Source: a virus. Taken from it: a stretch of DNA of 21,117 bases. Each line of letters starts with the position of its first letter. Positions within the stretch are counted from its first letter, which is position 1. Shown piece after piece: positions 12,829 through 19,230 of the stretch. A model generated the notes under the pieces. The model saw nothing but the letters and a program-made list of their open reading frames with translations, had not been told where the DNA came from and did not search any database. The translations under genes and the position numbers were made by a program. The stretch spans positions 1 through 21,117 of IMG/VR virus record IMGVR_UViG_3300035666_000191, one strand, 5' to 3'.

Positions 12829-13266
12829 CTATGCCAGCGTGAACACGCCGCTTGCGTTAATGGCCACAGTGAGCGTCCCGGATACCGTCGAGACGTTAGT
12901 CACCGTGTCCAGTTCGCAGAAGCACAGAAGGTCATCGTTGGTGTTGTCGGCGTAGATCACCGCATATTTGGCCGTGATGGTGGACGAGGTCCACGCCTGG
13001 TCATCGCAATCGAAGGTCACCGTGCCGGTCGATCTGACCCATGTGCAGGACAGCGTCTTGCCCGCCGTGGTGTAACCGCCGCCATTGGCAACTTCAGCCG
13101 TCAGATCCGCATAGCGGCAATCGGTCGATGTGCCGGCGAAGGTCGCAGCAAGCGCCTGCGCGTCGGTGCAGAGCGCCATCTTGAAGGTCTGCGTGTCGAG
13201 GTCAAAGACCCCATCCGCCAACTTTTCCTTGGCGATGTTGAAGACTGTCCATGCGCCCGCAGCCAT
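12829..13266 (-). CDS. Small beta-rich virion protein following the portal, 145 aa
   Basis: The start ATG shares one base with the portal stop (TGATG), and AAGGGA stands about eight bases upstream. The layout is one I know from many phages: 'FNIAKEKLADGVFDLDTQTF', then KMALCTDAQALA, a YADLTAEVANGGGYTTAGKT block, a TGTVTFDCDDQAW...ITAKYAVIYAD block, and a final LTVAINASGVFTLA. These are all beta-type sequence, commonly found among head or tail genes with no proven function. Unlike versions I recall, this one is rich in cysteine (six residues: in ALCT, TDCRY, LSCTW, FDCDD and LLCFCEL), which could support crosslinks outside the cell. The call as a virion protein rests on family style and position. 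Confidence 0.83.
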   Translation of the reverse strand: MAAGAWTVFNIAKEKLADGVFDLDTQTFKMALCTDAQALAATFAGTSTDCRYADLTAEVANGGGYTTAGKTLSCTWVRSTGTVTFDCDDQAWTSSTITAKYAVIYADNTNDDLLCFCELDTVTNVSTVSGTLTVAINASGVFTLA

Positions 13267-15431
13267 CAGCTATTTCCCTTCTTGATGCGAACGCCCATCG
13301 CCTTGCCGGTCTTCGGATCGCGGACCAGTTCCTTCTCGGACGATGCTGCCGCTTTGACTTCCTCAAAGCCCCTCACCATGATCTGCGCGAGCTGTTCCAG
13401 GCCTTGCAGAACCGCATCCTGCTTCTGACTGAGGTCATCGATGCGCGGGTCTGGCATTTCTTCAGGCTGTTCGGGCGGGGTCTTGAGCGCCATTTCCTGC
13501 GAGCGGAAGCCGTCTTCAGCCTGCGCACGCGACCTGTTGAACTCAAGCTGCTGCTGGCTTTCCTGCGCCCTCGTGGACATTTCCTGCGCTTTGAATGCGC
13601 GTTCCTGGTCAGAGCTTTCCCGCTCCAGCATCATCCGTTCACGCTCAAGCGCACGGGTTTCAGCCTCGGAGCCAAGCTTCTGGCGTTCCATCTCGAGCTG
13701 AAGCGGGGCCAACTGGCTATCAAGCTGCGCCTTGGACATCGTCGCCTGCGCTTGCGCCTGCTTCAACCCTACCTCGGCTTCCTTGCCCGCAATCTCCGCC
13801 TCGGCAGCGCGCTTCTGCATCGCCTGCGCCTCGGGGTCCTGCTGCTGGCCTTGGCCGCTCAGGAGCTCCGTCATCTTCTTCTTGCGCTGCGCCGGCAGGC
13901 TGCTCGCCTCGATCAGCGCCAGTGCGTAAGGCGGAGGCAGGGCTGCAAGCTGCGGCATGATCTGCGCCAGTTGCTCGAATTCCTCGCTCTGGAGCGTCAC
14001 CGTGTCCGGTCCCGTCTCAAGGATCACGTCCACATCCATCTGCGCCACGGCGTTCTGCACCTGCGGCTGGCCCGTCATCGGGTCCACCTGCACCTGGTTC
14101 AGCCCGATGAATTGCGTCGCCTGCTCGTCGTCAGTGATCCTGACCCATTTGGGCGAGGTCCAGAACTGTTTGATCCTGGCCCATGTGGCCCGGTAGACGC
14201 GCAGCTTGAAGTCATTGAACCGGTCATACAGCGGCGCAAGCTCGGCAAGCCCTGCCTGCTGCTGGGCGATGATGGCGCGTCCGCTCTCGCCTTCGGTGCC
14301 CTTGCCCTGAAGCGCATTGTTCGGCCCGAGAAGGTCAATCTCGGCTTTCGCCTCCTGCAACATATTGAGGTTGCCGGTCGTCTCCTGCGCCGTGTCCAGC
14401 ACCTGCACCGCTTGCGGGTCAACAACCTCGACCCAGCCATCAGGACGCGCAATCTCGCGCTTGGCCTGGCCTACATCAGCCACCGCGCCCTGTTGCGCCA
14501 TGACGCGGCGCGAGTGCAGGAAGTGGACAGCCTTGGACCGGCGATGGTTGATCTCGTCCTGCGGGCCGCGCATGTCGGCAACCACGCCGTAACGGGCGTT
14601 CTCGCGGTCAACGTAGGCGCTGAACGCCTCGATGGGGCAGACGGTCTTGCCCTTCTCGTCGCGGTAATAGCTCGGCCCGTCCATGACGAGCGTGGAGCCC
14701 ACCACGACGGCGTAGTTATGCTCAGAGCCAGCCTTGTAATAAAGCTGGCAGACCTGGACCCTTCTCCTTTTGCGGTCGATCCACGTCCCGCTCGACGGCT
14801 TGTCGTCAACGCTCTGGTCCGCAACGAACGCCTTTTCCGAGCCGGTAATGCCCGCCTCGATCTCCTTGCCCTTGTCGGGGTACAGCGCAATGGCGTCGTC
14901 TGCGTCCATCCACTTGAGGACGCCAAGGTAGCGAGCATCCGAAAAATCGTGGCGGCTGCTTCTCGGATCGAAGATGAACTCATCCCACGGGATCAGGTTG
15001 ACCCGAATGTCCTCGGGGCCGTCCATGATGACTTCGGCCGCACCCGCGCCCTCGATCATCCCGCACTCAAAAGCGCCGCTGAAGATGTTGTTCAGCCGCG
15101 TCTGATCGCTCACGAACCGCAACGCCTGCGTTACGATGTCGGCGCTTTGCTCGTCGCGTGGCGTGCGCGGATAGGCCTTGGGATCGGTGCGCCTGTTGCG
15201 CTCGACGCCCAAAATGCTGTCCACTTTCCTCTTGATGCGGTTGAAGACGATGGGCGGCTGACCGCGCTGCTTGAGGGTCGCGATTTCCTCACGCGTCCAT
15301 TGTTTGCCGTCGTAATAGTCACGCGCCAGGGCCGAGCGGTCGCGGGCCTCTTCCATCGTGTCGAGATACTCGCGCACCATCTTCCGGATGCGCTCGGCGC
15401 CGTCCTCGCCCGCTTCGGGCTTAGGCGACAT
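13266..15431 (-). CDS. Portal protein, P22-type, 721 aa
   Basis: The portal forms the dodecameric ring at the head vertex through which DNA is pumped. Length nearly equals P22 gp1 (725 aa). The family is recognised from the opening helix (VREYLDTMEEARDRSALARD, YYDGKQWT), GQPPIVFNRIKRKVDSILGV, the stem/wing segments RVNLIPWDEFIFDPRSSRHD and DARYLGVLKWMDADDAIALY, and RRVQVCQLYYKAG. The last third is a very long Gln/Glu/Arg-rich coiled coil (about 530-670), like the helical barrel of P22 portal. I chose ATG 15429-15431, two bases after the terL stop. A TTG at 15449, preceded by AAGGCGG, would add six residues and overlap terL by 16 bases. Both are plausible. Confidence 0.93.
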   Translation of the reverse strand: MSPKPEAGEDGAERIRKMVREYLDTMEEARDRSALARDYYDGKQWTREEIATLKQRGQPPIVFNRIKRKVDSILGVERNRRTDPKAYPRTPRDEQSADIVTQALRFVSDQTRLNNIFSGAFECGMIEGAGAAEVIMDGPEDIRVNLIPWDEFIFDPRSSRHDFSDARYLGVLKWMDADDAIALYPDKGKEIEAGITGSEKAFVADQSVDDKPSSGTWIDRKRRRVQVCQLYYKAGSEHNYAVVVGSTLVMDGPSYYRDEKGKTVCPIEAFSAYVDRENARYGVVADMRGPQDEINHRRSKAVHFLHSRRVMAQQGAVADVGQAKREIARPDGWVEVVDPQAVQVLDTAQETTGNLNMLQEAKAEIDLLGPNNALQGKGTEGESGRAIIAQQQAGLAELAPLYDRFNDFKLRVYRATWARIKQFWTSPKWVRITDDEQATQFIGLNQVQVDPMTGQPQVQNAVAQMDVDVILETGPDTVTLQSEEFEQLAQIMPQLAALPPPYALALIEASSLPAQRKKKMTELLSGQGQQQDPEAQAMQKRAAEAEIAGKEAEVGLKQAQAQATMSKAQLDSQLAPLQLEMERQKLGSEAETRALERERMMLERESSDQERAFKAQEMSTRAQESQQQLEFNRSRAQAEDGFRSQEMALKTPPEQPEEMPDPRIDDLSQKQDAVLQGLEQLAQIMVRGFEEVKAAASSEKELVRDPKTGKAMGVRIKKGNS

Positions 15432-15433
15432 GC

Positions 15434-16888
15434 TTACAATACTCGCCAATTGTCCGCCTTTGGTGGGGGTCTGTAGTCGCGTGGTCGCGTCAAGGGTTCA
15501 GGCGCGGCAGGCGTGAAGCCTGGATGCGCCATGTCGATCACCATGCCCATCAGGGCGCAGGTATCGACCAGATCGTCATGCTTGCCGGCCGGGAAGCTCA
15601 GAAGCTGGTTCAGCACCTTCTCGCCCAGATCCGTCTTCGGAAGGCTCACCTTGCCCATCGCAGCGCGGGCCTGGAATGCCCGGGCGCGGGTCGGCTTGTC
15701 CGAGATGGACGGTATCCATTCCGTGCGCGCGAACACGCGCAGCTCGTTCATGCGACGGGTCAGCATCGGCTTGACCGCCTTCACGATCACGCCAGCCTCG
15801 CCAAAGTAGCACAACGGGCGATGCTGCTTGAACAGCCGCAACAGCTCCTCGATCCACACATCCGCCGAGGTCTGGCCGGTCCAGCCATCGATCAGCGTCA
15901 GCGTGTCCTCGTGATAGTTCCAAACCAGATGCGCGGTCCAATCGCCGCCGTCCTCGGTCACAGCGTAGTCGCTGGTGATGTAGATGTGGCCCAGCTTCGG
16001 GGGCTCGTCGTGGCGCTTGAACCAATCGCGCAAGAAGAACGTGCCGTCGTCAGGCGTCGGGTTCTGCTGGTAGAGCGCCTCAAAGTCTCGCGGGCCAATT
16101 GCGGCCTTGATGCGCTTCAATGCATCGACGTCATAGCGTTCGGGCCAAAGCGCCTTGCCATTGTGGAGCGCAGGCAGGTTGACCTTGACCCACTGGTCGC
16201 CGCCATTGCCTTCCGCCTCGAGGAGCCGCCCGCCAAGGTCGTCCTCATGCCAGCGCGTCTGGATCAGGATAACAGCCCCACCCGGCATCAGGCGGGTGTA
16301 AGCGGTTGACGTGTACCAGTTCCAGATCGTGTCCCGCCGCAGCTCGCTCTCGGCTTCCTCACGGTCCTTCACAGGGTCATCGATCAGCAGGATGTGCGCG
16401 CCGCGACCAGTGACCGCTGTGCCGACACCGGCGGCGACATAGGCCCCGCCCGCGTCCGTGTTCCACCTGCCGGCCGCGCGGCTGTCCTCTGCCAGCTTCA
16501 CGTTGAACAGGCGGCTGAACTCGTTCGTCTTGATGATGTTGCGAACCTCGCGCCCGAAGTCTGAGGCCAGGTCCGAGTTGTAAGACGCCGCGATAATTTG
16601 CTTCTGCGGGTTCCGGCCCATGTACCAAGCGGGAAAGCGCCTCGAGGCCAGTTCCGACTTGCCGTGCCTTGGCGGCATGAAGATCATCAGGCGGTCGATC
16701 TCGCCCCGTTCAACTGCTTCCAGCTTCTCGGCTATCTCCGAATGAGGCGGGGCGGGCTCATAGGCGTGGTTGGTGTATTCAGTGAACGGGATCAGACCCC
16801 TTCGCGCGTGACGCCTCCGCAATAGCTCCTGCGCTGCCATTGCTGGCGATATAGGCGAGTTGTGCGTCTTCAAGCTCTGCTGGGTCAT
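15434..16888 (-). CDS. terL: Terminase large subunit (ATPase and nuclease), 484 aa
   Basis: The packaging motor. The ATPase shows Walker A PPRHGKSE (72-79), Walker B HILLIDDP (165-172) and the coupling motif QTRWHEDD (210-217). The RNase H-like nuclease shows its acidic residues in TSDYA (D307), FGEAG (E363) and KHDDLVD (D438/D439), all intact. Layout and length fit the phage TerL group whose C-terminal domain is modelled as psiM2-like. The start is uncertain: ATG 16888 gives a 110-base overlap with terS, while ATG 16843 (MAAQELLRRRHARRG) begins at the point where relatives usually begin but lacks a clear ribosome site. The stop lies two bases before the portal ATG. Confidence 0.95.
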   Translation of the reverse strand: MTQQSLKTHNSPISPAMAAQELLRRRHARRGLIPFTEYTNHAYEPAPPHSEIAEKLEAVERGEIDRLMIFMPPRHGKSELASRRFPAWYMGRNPQKQIIAASYNSDLASDFGREVRNIIKTNEFSRLFNVKLAEDSRAAGRWNTDAGGAYVAAGVGTAVTGRGAHILLIDDPVKDREEAESELRRDTIWNWYTSTAYTRLMPGGAVILIQTRWHEDDLGGRLLEAEGNGGDQWVKVNLPALHNGKALWPERYDVDALKRIKAAIGPRDFEALYQQNPTPDDGTFFLRDWFKRHDEPPKLGHIYITSDYAVTEDGGDWTAHLVWNYHEDTLTLIDGWTGQTSADVWIEELLRLFKQHRPLCYFGEAGVIVKAVKPMLTRRMNELRVFARTEWIPSISDKPTRARAFQARAAMGKVSLPKTDLGEKVLNQLLSFPAGKHDDLVDTCALMGMVIDMAHPGFTPAAPEPLTRPRDYRPPPKADNWRVL

Positions 16889-17186
16889 TCAGGTTTCTGA
16901 CAACATGTTCAGTGGTTTCTCTCCACCCCATGCGGCGCGCAGCCCATAGCGTGCAGGCCCAGCTTTCCCCGCGCTTGGCTGCTTCGAAGATCTTGCCGCC
17001 GACAATCGTGTTGGCTTCGCTGGCGCCATAGTCCAGGTCATCGCGATAGCAGCGGTGCAGCGTCTCAAGGCTCATCTTCAGCACGCCTGCCATCTGTGCG
17101 TGCGGAATGCCAATGGCAGACATGATCTTGATCTTGGCGTGCAATTCCTCGCGCGGGTGCTCTTGCCCCTTCTTAGGCCGGGACAT
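16779..17186 (-). CDS. terS: Terminase small subunit, 135 aa
   Basis: It recognises phage DNA and loads TerL. Residues 15-50 form a helix-turn-helix-like unit (LHAKIKIMSAIGIPHAQMAG, VLKMSLETLHRCYRDDLD), followed by the typical small-terminase stretch EANTIVGGKIFEAAKRGESW and ACTLWAARRMGWRET. The C-terminal tail is flexible and overlaps the 5' end of terL. The start overlaps the end of the glycosyltransferase gene by 14 bases (ATG-TCC-CGG-CCT-AA). The N terminus SRPKKGQEHPREE is basic, as expected of a DNA binder. The direct position before terL supports the call. Confidence 0.85.
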   Translation of the reverse strand: MSRPKKGQEHPREELHAKIKIMSAIGIPHAQMAGVLKMSLETLHRCYRDDLDYGASEANTIVGGKIFEAAKRGESWACTLWAARRMGWRETTEHVVRNLNDPAELEDAQLAYIASNGSAGAIAEASRAKGSDPVH

Positions 17187-18051
17187 GGTTCTGCTTCCTG
17201 TGAGCCGGGCTTATGATCTTCGGGGCAATGGCGCCCCAGTTAACCTGGTGGTGTAGGCGCTTCCGGTTGTCGCCCATCAGCGTGATCTTCACCGCGCTTG
17301 GGGCGACGATCACGGAATAGAATGATTTCACGTAGGTGCCGAAGGCCTTGTAGATATCCGTCAGGCCGCCGGCGTTTTCCTGCGTGTTGCCCTGATCGAG
17401 CGAGAACAGGGTGGTTGATAGAAACACGCGCGAGCCGTCACGCTGAAGCAGGCTGCTGTTGACGTCGTCATTGAGCTTGCCGAGGAACTTGAACGGCCGG
17501 TCGACGTCGCACAGGAAAAAGTTCATGGCCTTGCGCTTCCACTTGCCCACCTTGCCCTCACCGCCGCCGATGAAGTCGCCGCCTTGGCAGATGGCGAACG
17601 TGGTGAGGTAGGGCACGGACGCATAGAAACGGAGGAGCAACGCGAATACCGTGTCTAGGTCGTGAATTATGGTGGTGGTCTTGTTGTTCTGCCACTCCTC
17701 GCGGAAGCGGAACGCGAAGTGATAGTAATCGTCATCGAGTTGCACAAAGTACCGGAAGCCGGCCGCGCGCACCAACTCATGAACCGCATTGCGGGCATAG
17801 AGCACGGAACGCCGCTCGGGGAAGTTGTCCACCTCGTCCGCCGGGTCGTAAACGTCTTCTTTCGAGAACACGATCAGCTCATCGCCGAACTTTTCCCGAT
17901 ACTGGTCAAGTTCCGGGTCTGCGTCATCAACCACGAGGCGGATGGCGCCGGTATATCCCCGCTTGCGCAAGAGCTTGTATGTGGACACGTCGGCGGATCG
18001 CTTGTGCGAGAAGATCACCGCGCAAAAGGTCGCCGGATCAATCTTCGCCAT
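17173..18051 (-). CDS. Predicted DNA-base glycosyltransferase, TET-associated (TAGT-like), 292 aa
   Basis: Likely transfers a sugar to a modified base in phage DNA. Visible features are a Rossmann-like start (FCAVIFSHKRSADVSTYKLL, IRLVVDDADPELDQYREKFG), a metal/nucleotide-sugar site YFVQLDDDYYHF with D106-D108, ICQGGDFIGGG (155-164), KRKAMNFFLCDVDRPFKFLG, LNDDVN, GGLTDIYKAFGTYVKSFYSV, ITLMGD and a final LHHQVNWGAIAPKIIS. These blocks match, from memory, the TAGT family described in phage base-hypermodification loci. The ORF is open to 18183, but the part before MAKIDPATFC is Arg/Trp/Ser-rich shadow sequence of the ParB gene. ATG 18049-18051 gives a 14-base overlap with parB-like and no obvious ribosome site, so it is probably coupled. 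No dioxygenase or methyltransferase is in the window. Confidence 0.8.
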   Translation of the reverse strand: MAKIDPATFCAVIFSHKRSADVSTYKLLRKRGYTGAIRLVVDDADPELDQYREKFGDELIVFSKEDVYDPADEVDNFPERRSVLYARNAVHELVRAAGFRYFVQLDDDYYHFAFRFREEWQNNKTTTIIHDLDTVFALLLRFYASVPYLTTFAICQGGDFIGGGEGKVGKWKRKAMNFFLCDVDRPFKFLGKLNDDVNSSLLQRDGSRVFLSTTLFSLDQGNTQENAGGLTDIYKAFGTYVKSFYSVIVAPSAVKITLMGDNRKRLHHQVNWGAIAPKIISPAHRKQNHVPA

Positions 18052-18874
18052 GTTGCTCAAGAAAGGCCCCCATGGCCTCGTCCGCCAGTTGAACGTAACC
18101 GCGCTTGATGGCGTCATCGAAGTCGATGACCACCAGAGCGGATTGCTCGAATAGCGCCTGAACGTCCGCCGGCGCGTGAGCATACTTCTCGGCGATGAGG
18201 CCGAAGTTGAAACGGATGTGACGGGACGCGGCGAGCTTCAGAAAGCGGCGCGTCTCATGGTCAAGGCCTGGCGCCTTATCGATCTCACTTGCGAGTGCGT
18301 TGTACTTCTCGACGTCCGCGAGCTTCGCCCATGGCGGGTTCTCGCCGCGGATTTCATAGACCGGGGACGCGACCTTGTGGGTGTAGGCGTCATGGTCGAG
18401 AAGGCTTTTCTCGGATCCCGAGGCGAACAGGTCATCGAGGAACGCGCCGTCAAAGCCCATCAGGCCAACGTCAAATCCCTCGGCCTGCAAGTCGCCGATC
18501 TCGACCTTGAGCAGGTCCATGTCCCATCCGGCATTCTGCGCCAGCTGGTTGTCCGCAAGCACATAAGCCCGCTTCTGCGCGTCGGTCCAACCCGTCGCCA
18601 CGATGCAGGGGACTGCCTCGATCTTCAGCTTGCGCGCAGCCATCACGCGGCCGTGGCCGGCGATGATCCCGCCCGCTTCATCGATCAGGACCGGGTTGGT
18701 CCAACCCCATTCGCGGATTGATGCCGCTATCTGCGCCACTTGCGCCTCTGAGTGCGTGCGAGCATTCCGGGCGTAAGGGATCAGGCTGGCCACTGAACGA
18801 CGTTCTGGCGCATCGCTAGGCCACTTCGCGCGCGTTGACGTTACAGTTTTTGACTTCACGAAGCGTACGTCCAT
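18038..18874 (-). CDS. ParB/Srx-like domain protein with phage-specific C-terminal domain, 278 aa
   Basis: Residues 26-115 are a ParB/sulfiredoxin-type domain: SVASLIPYARNARTHSEAQV, IAASIREWGWTNPVLIDEAG, IIAGHGRVMAARKL (box with GHGR in place of GERR), then CIVATGWTDAQKRAYVLADN. Such domains bind or hydrolyse nucleotides and often head phage DNA methyltransferases. Here no methyltransferase follows. Instead residues about 165-265 (PVYEIRGENPPW; FLKLAASRHIRFNFGLIAEK; YAHAPADVQALFEQSALVVI; DFDDAIKRGY) form a distinct domain that I recall next to TAGT-like glycosyltransferases in other phages. The gene overlaps its upstream neighbour by 19 bases and the glycosyltransferase by 14. A GTG at 18859 is a possible later start. 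It may guide or regulate DNA modification, which is inference. Confidence 0.85.
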   Translation of the reverse strand: MDVRFVKSKTVTSTRAKWPSDAPERRSVASLIPYARNARTHSEAQVAQIAASIREWGWTNPVLIDEAGGIIAGHGRVMAARKLKIEAVPCIVATGWTDAQKRAYVLADNQLAQNAGWDMDLLKVEIGDLQAEGFDVGLMGFDGAFLDDLFASGSEKSLLDHDAYTHKVASPVYEIRGENPPWAKLADVEKYNALASEIDKAPGLDHETRRFLKLAASRHIRFNFGLIAEKYAHAPADVQALFEQSALVVIDFDDAIKRGYVQLADEAMGAFLEQHGED

Positions 18875-19230
18875 CCATAATCGCTGCGCCAGTTCCCGTT
18901 CACCTCGACATAGCGAAGCTTCTCGATGCGCACGCGGCCATCGCTGAACGTCACGGTCACGTCCGTGTCGCCATAGCCCATGCCGAGGCCAGTCGTGGTC
19001 AGCGTGACCTGGCCGGATGAAACCGCAACCGATCCGCTGATGTTGCTGTCAGTGACAGCGGCTGTGATGGTTGCGCCGTTCAGCACGTCGGTAAAGTCTA
19101 GGACAGCTTTGCCCGTCTCGTCCTCTCGTTGCTGCAAGACGAACCTCCCAACACGATGGTCTTTAGTGACGCCGCGCAAGATTTCGCGGTTGTTCTCGCG
19201 GTATCGGATGATCGGGTTGGGATAGGCCAT
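18856..19230 (-). CDS. Beta-rich phage protein, 124 aa, first gene of the late operon
   Basis: Not firmly recognised. It starts MAYPNPIIRYRENNREILRG, then RFVLQQREDETGKAVLDFTD, and then shows Ig-like strands (LNGATITAAVTDSNISGSVA, VSSGQVTLTTTGLGMGYGDT, DVTVTFSDGRVRIEKLRYVE). The pattern 'DFTDVL.GATI....' resembles small phage fibre or tail Ig-like proteins ('W..WL...TI'). It leads the minus-strand row and overlaps the ParB-like gene by 19 bases. Upstream, the mRNA reads UGAGG-UAUAG-CCUCA-AUG: the GAGG ribosome site lies in the 5' arm of a 5-bp hairpin next to the start codon, so initiation may be controlled. A structural role is possible but its place before terS is unusual for one. Confidence 0.75.
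   Translation of the reverse strand: MAYPNPIIRYRENNREILRGVTKDHRVGRFVLQQREDETGKAVLDFTDVLNGATITAAVTDSNISGSVAVSSGQVTLTTTGLGMGYGDTDVTVTFSDGRVRIEKLRYVEVNGNWRSDYGWTYAS

Follow-up and report, generated by a model that had tools for sequence, protein, structure and literature searches.

Organization of the locus

We analyzed a pair of adjacent phage genes, encoding a ParB-fold protein and a TAGT-family glycosyltransferase, that lie directly ahead of the terminase genes in the 21,117-base virus record IMGVR_UViG_3300035666_000191, which is possibly a fragment and is referred to here, at its full length, as the window. The genes of this region follow one another head to tail on the minus strand, in the order 124-amino-acid gene, ParB, TAGT, terS, terL and portal, with the following assignments from the ParB gene onward.

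18038..18874, minus strand: gene for the ParB-fold adaptor protein, 278 amino acids, ATG start and TGA stop (PHROG 620; AlphaFold2 model with a predicted local distance difference test score, pLDDT, of 84.9)
17173..18051, minus strand: gene for the TAGT-family glycosyltransferase, 292 amino acids, ATG start and TAA stop (Pfam TAGT, PHROG 842, glycosyltransferase-A (GT-A) model)
16779..17186, minus strand: putative terS, small terminase subunit, 135 amino acids (PHROG 309, E 5.6e-4, and position)
15434..16888, minus strand: terL, large terminase subunit (PHROG 38, E 1.9e-109; Terminase_6N, E 7.4e-18)
13266..15449, minus strand: gene for a P22-like portal protein (Pfam PF16510, E 4.1e-118)

The ParB and TAGT genes overlap by 14 bases, as do the TAGT and terS genes, and the coordinates, strand and overlaps that a first-pass annotation of the window had given for these neighbors proved exact. 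The large terminase subunit is clear, and the small one is called from its location and the weak PHROG match. A longer TAGT frame of 336 amino acids, opening at 18183, was rejected, since similarity to relatives begins near the ATG at 18051.

Family, fold and conserved residues

The TAGT family was reportedly described by Iyer et al. 2013 (NAR 41:7635). The first-pass annotation had named the second gene TAGT-like, and this reading is borne out by a hidden Markov model search against Pfam, in which the protein reaches 102.7 bits with PF20691 (E 3.4e-29; curated cut-off 27.5 bits), by a match to PHROG 842 (E 9.7e-53), and by comparison of its predicted structure with glycosyltransferase folds. 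The best neighbors in the PDB of the AlphaFold2 model (pLDDT 88.0, predicted template modeling score 0.87) are GT-A enzymes, at Z scores of 11.5-13.2; GnT-I is among the high-ranking solved chains (Z 13.2, root-mean-square deviation 4.0, 197 residues), together with bacterial cellulose synthase, polypeptide GalNAc-T2 and, by Foldseek, SunS. Searching PDB sequences with profile A1, built from TAGTs, gave no match, and the window TAGT had none in NCBIfam. The protein is a TAGT with a GT-A fold, and its predicted activity is glycosyl transfer to a DNA base. The motifs LDDD, QGGDFIGGG and KSFYSV that had been picked out before are all present, and their core residues are conserved across 75 aligned sequences. 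Conserved positions in this alignment include the following.

17728..17736, minus strand: DDD (D106-D108), D108 invariant, D106 and D107 kept in at least 90% of the 75 sequences; presumably the metal/nucleotide-sugar motif of GT-A enzymes
17464..17472, minus strand: N194-x-D196, N194 and D196 invariant; candidate catalytic acid
17248..17253, minus strand: H267-H268, an invariant pair near the C-terminus

The ParB protein is covered by PHROG 620 over residues 24-266 (E 3.3e-61), and residues 22-160 of its model align with 7bnr_A, a ParB with CTP-gamma-S (Z 15.2, root-mean-square deviation 2.5, 135 residues). The ParB/Srx domain proposed earlier is upheld by this family match and by the ParB-CTPase fold, whereas the Pfam ParB_N score itself (20.8 bits) lies under the cut-off of 26.3. 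The protein is not a canonical ParABS ParB by the models searched, with 21.9 bits against the 58.45 of TIGR00180 and all NCBIfam partition models below cut-off. Three features of the protein are used below.

18395..18802, minus strand: ParB-CTPase-fold domain, residues about 25-160 (model aligned to 7bnr_A)
18647..18658, minus strand: GHGR, residues 73-76, corresponding to the phosphate motif of ParB; 61 of 71 aligned ParB proteins retain R76
18041..18388, minus strand: C-terminal helical domain, residues 163-278, found beside TAGT with or without ParB and co-varying with TAGT

Nucleoside triphosphate (NTP) binding via R76, which is present in the window protein, is predicted. In the model the ParB-CTPase fold is followed by a low-confidence linker and then by helices at about 189-275; the matches listed in PDB searches with this model are taken up by the ParB part.

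The helical C-domain is the near-constant partner of this TAGT type

The helical domain at the C-terminus of the ParB protein, of about 110 residues and hereafter the C-domain, accompanies TAGT far beyond the window. A gene containing it lies directly upstream of TAGT in 90 of 91 TAGT entries (loci L001-L090 and the window, L001 being a copy of the window and L002-L005 near-copies), and the remaining entry, L086, starts inside TAGT; the scan of viral contigs behind these entries used the closer query set A2, not all nine TAGTs. Seen from the other side, a search of bacterial genomes by C-domain alone gave 13 loci, all with a TAGT behind. The viral C-domain and ParB-N sets each comprise the best 80 loci among the matches listed; TAGT lies within 600 nucleotides in 79 of the 80 C-domain loci, and 1,053 nucleotides off, behind an epimerase gene, in the last. 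No fusion of C-domain and TAGT was flagged in these 80. A further 130 non-identical C-domain proteins, drawn from two further scans and nine earlier loci, have TAGT right behind (118) or within about 2.5 kb (11), and in one case the contig ends first. In a phage collection, all 28 C-domain records fall among the 36 TAGT records; the other eight are two of Porphyromonas, whose phage's C-domain was found by profile, and six of Lactobacillus with a damaged module.

The two parts have also diverged together. In a mirror-tree comparison of 63 of 129 loci, retained after near-copies and loci with two TAGTs were dropped, the correlation between C-domain and TAGT distances was 0.436 vs 0.215 between the ParB-N domain and TAGT (bootstrap difference 0.078 to 0.351), and the correlation between ParB-N and C-domain was 0.185, although these share a chain. 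In our P-values related contigs count as independent, which exaggerates how strong such associations are. This TAGT type has the helical C-domain, not the ParB domain, as its near-constant partner. Linkage and co-divergence support the earlier suggestion that the ParB protein and TAGT form one unit; a separate C-terminal domain had been recognized at that time, and its role as the key partner of TAGT had been missed. Within the first 1 kb of L105, L106 and L107 (Lactobacillus phages Ld17, LL-Ku and Ld25A, respectively) both genes are damaged together, and the module seems dispensable in these phages.

The ParB-N domain is shared with other DNA-modifying enzymes

Outside TAGT cassettes, the best ParB-N matches are mostly labelled methyltransferases. 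Among the best 80 viral loci, of which 50 were scanned for a fused enzyme (all 50 matched), 20 for the next gene, and ten were TAGT-type or cut, the partner was an N6/N4 methyltransferase in 53 (50 fused and 3 separate, with two partial matches), Mom in 7, a C5 methyltransferase in 4, an ABC-ATPase/GNAT protein in 3, a TGT-like protein in 1 and unassigned in 3 (one cut). The nine TAGT-type loci consist of six with C-domain and TAGT, L266, which is cut before TAGT, and L220 and L268. Where the locus had room, the next 4 kb downstream included a terminase in 22 of 26 loci with a fused and 1 of 2 with a separate methyltransferase, and in 2 of 4 Mom, 3 of 4 C5, 4 of 5 TAGT-type and 1 of 1 GNAT loci. 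In ctOK67, a fusion of ParB with an N6/N4 methyltransferase stands just ahead of a small DNA-binding protein, terminase and portal, and in Psychrobacter phage Y8A terS is immediately preceded by a Mom gene (E 1.8e-55) that the ParB gene overlaps; the ParB-N loci of Vibrio phage D93 and Acinetobacter phage P711 have no terminase annotated in the stretch shown. The Y8A Mom homologue (L110, 4587-5240) is hypothetical in its record, and the MOM gene listed by the authors lies elsewhere in that genome.

The ParB domain has been exchanged repeatedly between cassettes. On an N-domain tree of 149 rows, built from few columns and with many forks open, the partner label requires 31 changes (four unassigned rows left out) and the TAGT label 20, at least 5 of these forced by well supported branches, and the Mom, C5 and GNAT labels are as scattered as shuffled ones. 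Among the rows of this tree, which L002-L005 are not part of, the window N-domain is nearest to those of the methyltransferase cassette L194 and the Mom cassette L192 (76%). The tails of the ParB proteins vary with the partner: one conserved tail occurs in 6 of 8 Mom partners, CPxC-type tails in 4 C5 partners and the remaining 2 Mom partners, and another tail is shared by the 3 GNAT partners, while most TAGTs have the helical domain. L220 (5989-7576) and L268 (826-2497) represent a second kind of ParB-TAGT cassette, in which the tail looks conserved and the helical domain is missing.

The window cassette shares the arrangement in which a ParB-N protein, fused to or overlapping a modification enzyme, stands ahead of the terminase. 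That known kinds of DNA-base modifier share this ParB-N domain and this position leads us to infer strongly that DNA is the substrate of the ParB-TAGT cassette.

Two further partner types were noted in the same survey. In L214 (3-1669), a TGT/queuine-transferase-like gene (PHROG 887, E 2.3e-18) comes after a ParB protein that has a methyltransferase-like remnant, possibly as a cassette of the ParB-DpdA type. An ABC-ATPase and GNAT protein follows the ParB-N gene in L237 (619-1686), L259 (1606-2700) and L271 (2550-3617), and is a candidate for a further DNA modifier.

Cassettes without ParB carry short leaders and mostly lie among replication genes

Some C-domain proteins have no ParB part, and 98 of the 130 non-identical ones are without a recognized ParB-N domain. 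In these, the C-domain is preceded by a leader; 73 of the 98 were used, after exclusion of duplicates, of leaders with fewer than 8 or more than 45 residues, and of those that had no clear start or began within the domain. Of the 73 leaders, 22 contain the motif Q..[LM]F, where shuffling predicts 0.44 (at most 4 in any of 2,000 shuffles), and 58 contain LF, where it predicts 7.2 (at most 17). Q..LF is a bacterial sliding-clamp-binding motif. In the ParB-bearing controls, none of 43 N-termini had either motif, and of 71 linkers none had Q..[LM]F and 4 had LF. Counted over the first 12 residues, Q..[LM]F was found in 20 of 73 leaders vs 2 of 343 other frames of at least 150 residues at the same loci, and LF in 51 of 73 vs 40 of 343. 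In some of these proteins a clamp-type leader stands in the place of the ParB domain.

The surroundings differ as well. After removal of copies and cut genes, a terminase was found within 3.3 kb downstream of 19 of 24 ParB-bearing vs 3 of 74 ParB-less cassettes (26 of 32 and 5 of 105, respectively, before removal). Across the C-domain scan, 40 of 54 TAGT loci with room precede a terminase within 4 kb, so that the earlier claim of coupling to the terminase holds for most loci and fails for the ParB-less versions, which are mostly beside replication genes. Ten neighbors of ParB-less cassettes comprise two family A DNA polymerases, one DnaB-type helicase, one SSB, one second TAGT, three proteins that match a clamp model below cut-off and two without a match. 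Clamp-like genes stand beside four ParB-less cassettes, three with sub-threshold Pfam matches (E 2.5e-4 to 9.6e-3) and the fourth with none, and the label sliding clamp for such neighbors is tentative. A PolA-like gene is present in 58 loci of the ParB-less type, and LF..P marks the start of 22 of the 34 with an open N-terminus; several of the 12 others look like wrong start picks. PolA-like polymerases that begin with M.LF..P, for example in L401 (1047-3446), L279 (1210-3534) and L403 (1118-3451), resemble in this the leaders of the neighboring C-domain proteins.

Distribution and selection

ParB-TAGT precedes the terminase in phages of Lactobacillus, E. coli (Rac-like), Nocardia, Porphyromonas and a haloarchaeon, with eight small genes intervening in the haloarchaeal phage. 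At least 80% of the pair is present in 885 of 5,426 complete E. coli genomes, and some match in 1,572; the K-12 MG1655 record is listed with a match that covers only the first 254 of 1,717 bases, which is the start of the first gene. Among viral-contig alleles with 85% identity or more to references of the E. coli type, the median ratio of nonsynonymous to synonymous substitution rates (dN/dS) was 0.083 across 32 TAGT alleles and 0.121 across 25 ParB alleles. The pair is a widespread module under purifying selection, and the arrangement is more than chance, because its gene order recurs in unrelated named phages and dN/dS is low. In a Rac-like E. coli phage (L009, 19205-20921), a ynaK-type ParB gene and TAGT lie between trkG and terS, and the E. 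coli pair is labelled "GREB1-related protein" in some genomes.

Interpretation and alternatives

We consider it probable that the two genes constitute a DNA-modification cassette, in which the helical domain docks TAGT and a DNA tether holds the transferase on phage DNA. With TAGT docked to the helical domain, the ParB domain would hold the complex on replicated phage DNA, by analogy with its known relatives, where the domain is an NTP-driven DNA clamp, and bases would be glycosylated before the terminase packages the DNA. In phages without ParB, a short leader, often of the sliding-clamp-binding type, would tether TAGT at the replication fork. The ParB domain is read as a DNA tether because the clamp-type leader takes its place in some phages, and both kinds of tether have precedents, since co-purification of a T4 transferase with the sliding clamp and pairing of DpdB with DpdA are known. 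A host nucleotide sugar would serve as the donor, and two loci bring a sugar-nucleotide-type enzyme of their own.

Several observations weigh against this interpretation or narrow it. Many of the fold neighbors of TAGT are protein glycosyltransferases. Loci entered the survey through their similarity to the window or to further members, so that their counts are not independent. On the N-domain tree the TAGT and N6/N4 labels each form clusters (none of 500 shuffles scored as low), so that ParB exchange has been repeated and not free. Two of the nine ParB-N/TAGT-type loci, L220 and L268, lack the C-domain and combine another tail with a divergent TAGT (56-58 bits). They weaken the view that the helical domain is invariably present, and a different tail on a divergent TAGT is consistent with partner-specific tails. 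The phosphate-motif arginine is missing in 10 of the 71 aligned ParB proteins, so NTP use is not universal, and the stricter clamp motif is limited to 22 of 73 leaders. The TAGT of T2/T6 adds glucose to hydroxymethylcytosine that is already glucosylated, according to the accessible part of PMC13216743, and the T6 enzyme is distant enough that the ParB-linked TAGT profile finds no significant match in it. Of the 93 module records examined, many of them of 40-160 kb, one has a gene of the thymidylate-synthase/hydroxymethylase family, and the T6 control was positive.

The last of these points bears on the acceptor base. The first-pass annotation had expected base glycosylation to depend on a hydroxylated base made by a TET/JBP dioxygenase, a dCMP hydroxymethylase or a methyltransferase, unless the enzyme used another acceptor; glycosylation of DNA bases itself is favored by the TAGT assignment, the GT-A fold and a ParB-N domain common to DNA modifiers, whereas the expected TET link was not recovered. 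On such a classical route, TAGT would act on 5-hydroxymethyl or 5-hydroxy pyrimidines, and the hydroxymethylase or TET/JBP enzyme would be encoded outside the 21 kb or go unrecognized. This chemistry has been described for T2/T6 (PMC13216743, in the portion available), the window may well be a fragment, and the one hydroxymethylase-family carrier, Vibrio phage SRILMA (195 kb), does have such a gene, which may be an ordinary thymidylate synthase. We nevertheless judge this route unlikely, as a C5-methylase was found in 1 of 45 module records, and neither it nor the hydroxymethylase family in five named complete phages of 31-65 kb. In addition, L005, whose TAGT is identical to that of the window, extends this phage type by about 7 kb and ten proteins, which include AAA, DnaA-C-terminal, PD-(D/E)XK-like and Toprim/AAA-type genes, i.e. 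replication-type genes, and no recognizable hydroxylase, with 6 of the 10 proteins having no match over cut-off. The absence of TET/JBP from 45 and 23 records at E 0.001 counts little here, since no control gave a signal and many records are fragments. As a tentative alternative to which we give somewhat more credence, though still less than even, the pair may glycosylate an ordinary base, or one made acceptor-ready by an unrecognized step, with no prior hydroxymethylation; ParB or leader would deliver the transferase, and ParB would be an exchangeable tether for at least five classes of modifier. A TAGT working without a hydroxylated base would, if true, be new DNA chemistry.

Glycosylation of a virion or packaging protein, with the ParB protein regulating packaging, would fit the position of TAGT beside terS/terL and portal, and polypeptide GalNAc-transferases and the S-glycosyltransferase SunS are among its closest solved folds. 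It is nonetheless improbable, given that ParB-less cassettes lie among DNA polymerase, SSB, DnaB-type and clamp-like genes, and before a terminase in just 3 of 74 cases, and that the same ParB-N domain works with DNA methyltransferases and Mom. Databases label the ParB gene as a partition protein or nuclease, and a ParB of either type might merely share an operon with TAGT; we find this scarcely credible, since linkage is near-obligate from both sides, C-domain and TAGT have co-diverged and been damaged jointly, and both persist without ParB.

Some loci offer observations on the sugar donor and on transferase number. An NAD-dependent epimerase gene (L118, 4921-5937) and a histidine-phosphatase/cytidylyltransferase fusion (L231, 6740-7693) are each inserted between the C-domain gene and TAGT, and are possibly donor-sugar enzymes. 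Tandem TAGT genes behind one C-domain gene occur in L102 (10335-12037), L125 (8342-9996) and L148 (8335-10025), which hints at sugar chains, with two sugars added in turn, in some phages. In L152 (8339-9727), TAGT is fused behind a stretch of about 180 residues that opens with a P-loop-like GGSRAGKT and has no Pfam match.

Relation to known systems

Homologues of phage Mu Mom occur in the same kind of position beside this ParB-N domain, and their ParB partners differ from those of TAGT in having other tails. Mom modifies adenine by a different reaction. To our knowledge, the T4 alpha-glucosyltransferase has no adaptor protein. Like the putatively clamp-tethered TAGTs of the ParB-less cassettes, this DNA glucosyltransferase is associated with a clamp, co-purifying with the sliding clamp gp45 as reported in the accessible sections of PMC13216743, where gp45 binding is described as not the main cause of the dominance of this enzyme in T4. 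The same partial source gives it a GT-B fold and hydroxymethylcytosine as its substrate, in both of which it differs from the enzyme studied here (PMC13216743).

The T2/T6 ggt protein, a beta-glucosyl-HMC-alpha-glucosyltransferase (HMC, hydroxymethylcytosine), belongs to the same Pfam family PF20691, T6 scoring above cut-off (E 4.8e-11), and the T6 TAGT shares the GT-A fold, as reported from a model in the available part of PMC13216743. Unlike the window gene, T6 ggt adjoins a dCMP hydroxymethylase, and no C-domain was found within the 50 kb fetched around it. In the DpdA/DpdB 7-deazaguanine system, a ParB-like protein, DpdB, accompanies the base-altering DpdA, as ParB accompanies TAGT here; that system differs in exchanging the base by a TGT homologue, and the available portions of its descriptions do not mention a TAGT-docking domain (PMC12839542, PMC6392294). 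Fusions of ParB with methyltransferases, and CmoX with ParBc proteins, likewise tie a ParB-fold domain to phage DNA modifiers, but transfer methyl or carboxymethyl groups, and no ParB-linked glycosyltransferase appears in the accessible text of these reports (PMC12783734, PMC12704722). The precise function of the ParB part beside phage DNA modifiers was called unknown in a 2025 paper, as far as its available text goes (PMC12783734), and the tether role would be a testable answer to this question.

According to the accessible part of a 2026 paper, "solitary" TAGTs occur in 288 of 753 phage genomes and were suggested to be novel transferases (PMC13216743); the ParB-TAGT cassette offers part of them a concrete home. 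Our literature search, to which most subscription papers and Iyer et al. 2013 were not open, found no report of the ParB-TAGT pairing, the helical domain or tether exchange, and ParB and TAGT were not joined in the texts searched, including the available parts of PMC10434257, PMC7761591 and PMC13390438. As E. coli prophages carry the pair, the proposal is testable in laboratory E. coli.

The gene next upstream of the cassette in the window overlaps the ParB start and is at most a candidate member of the ParB-TAGT unit.

18856..19230, minus strand: 124-amino-acid gene, overlapping the start of the ParB gene by 19 bases, with no more than a sub-threshold TIG-like match

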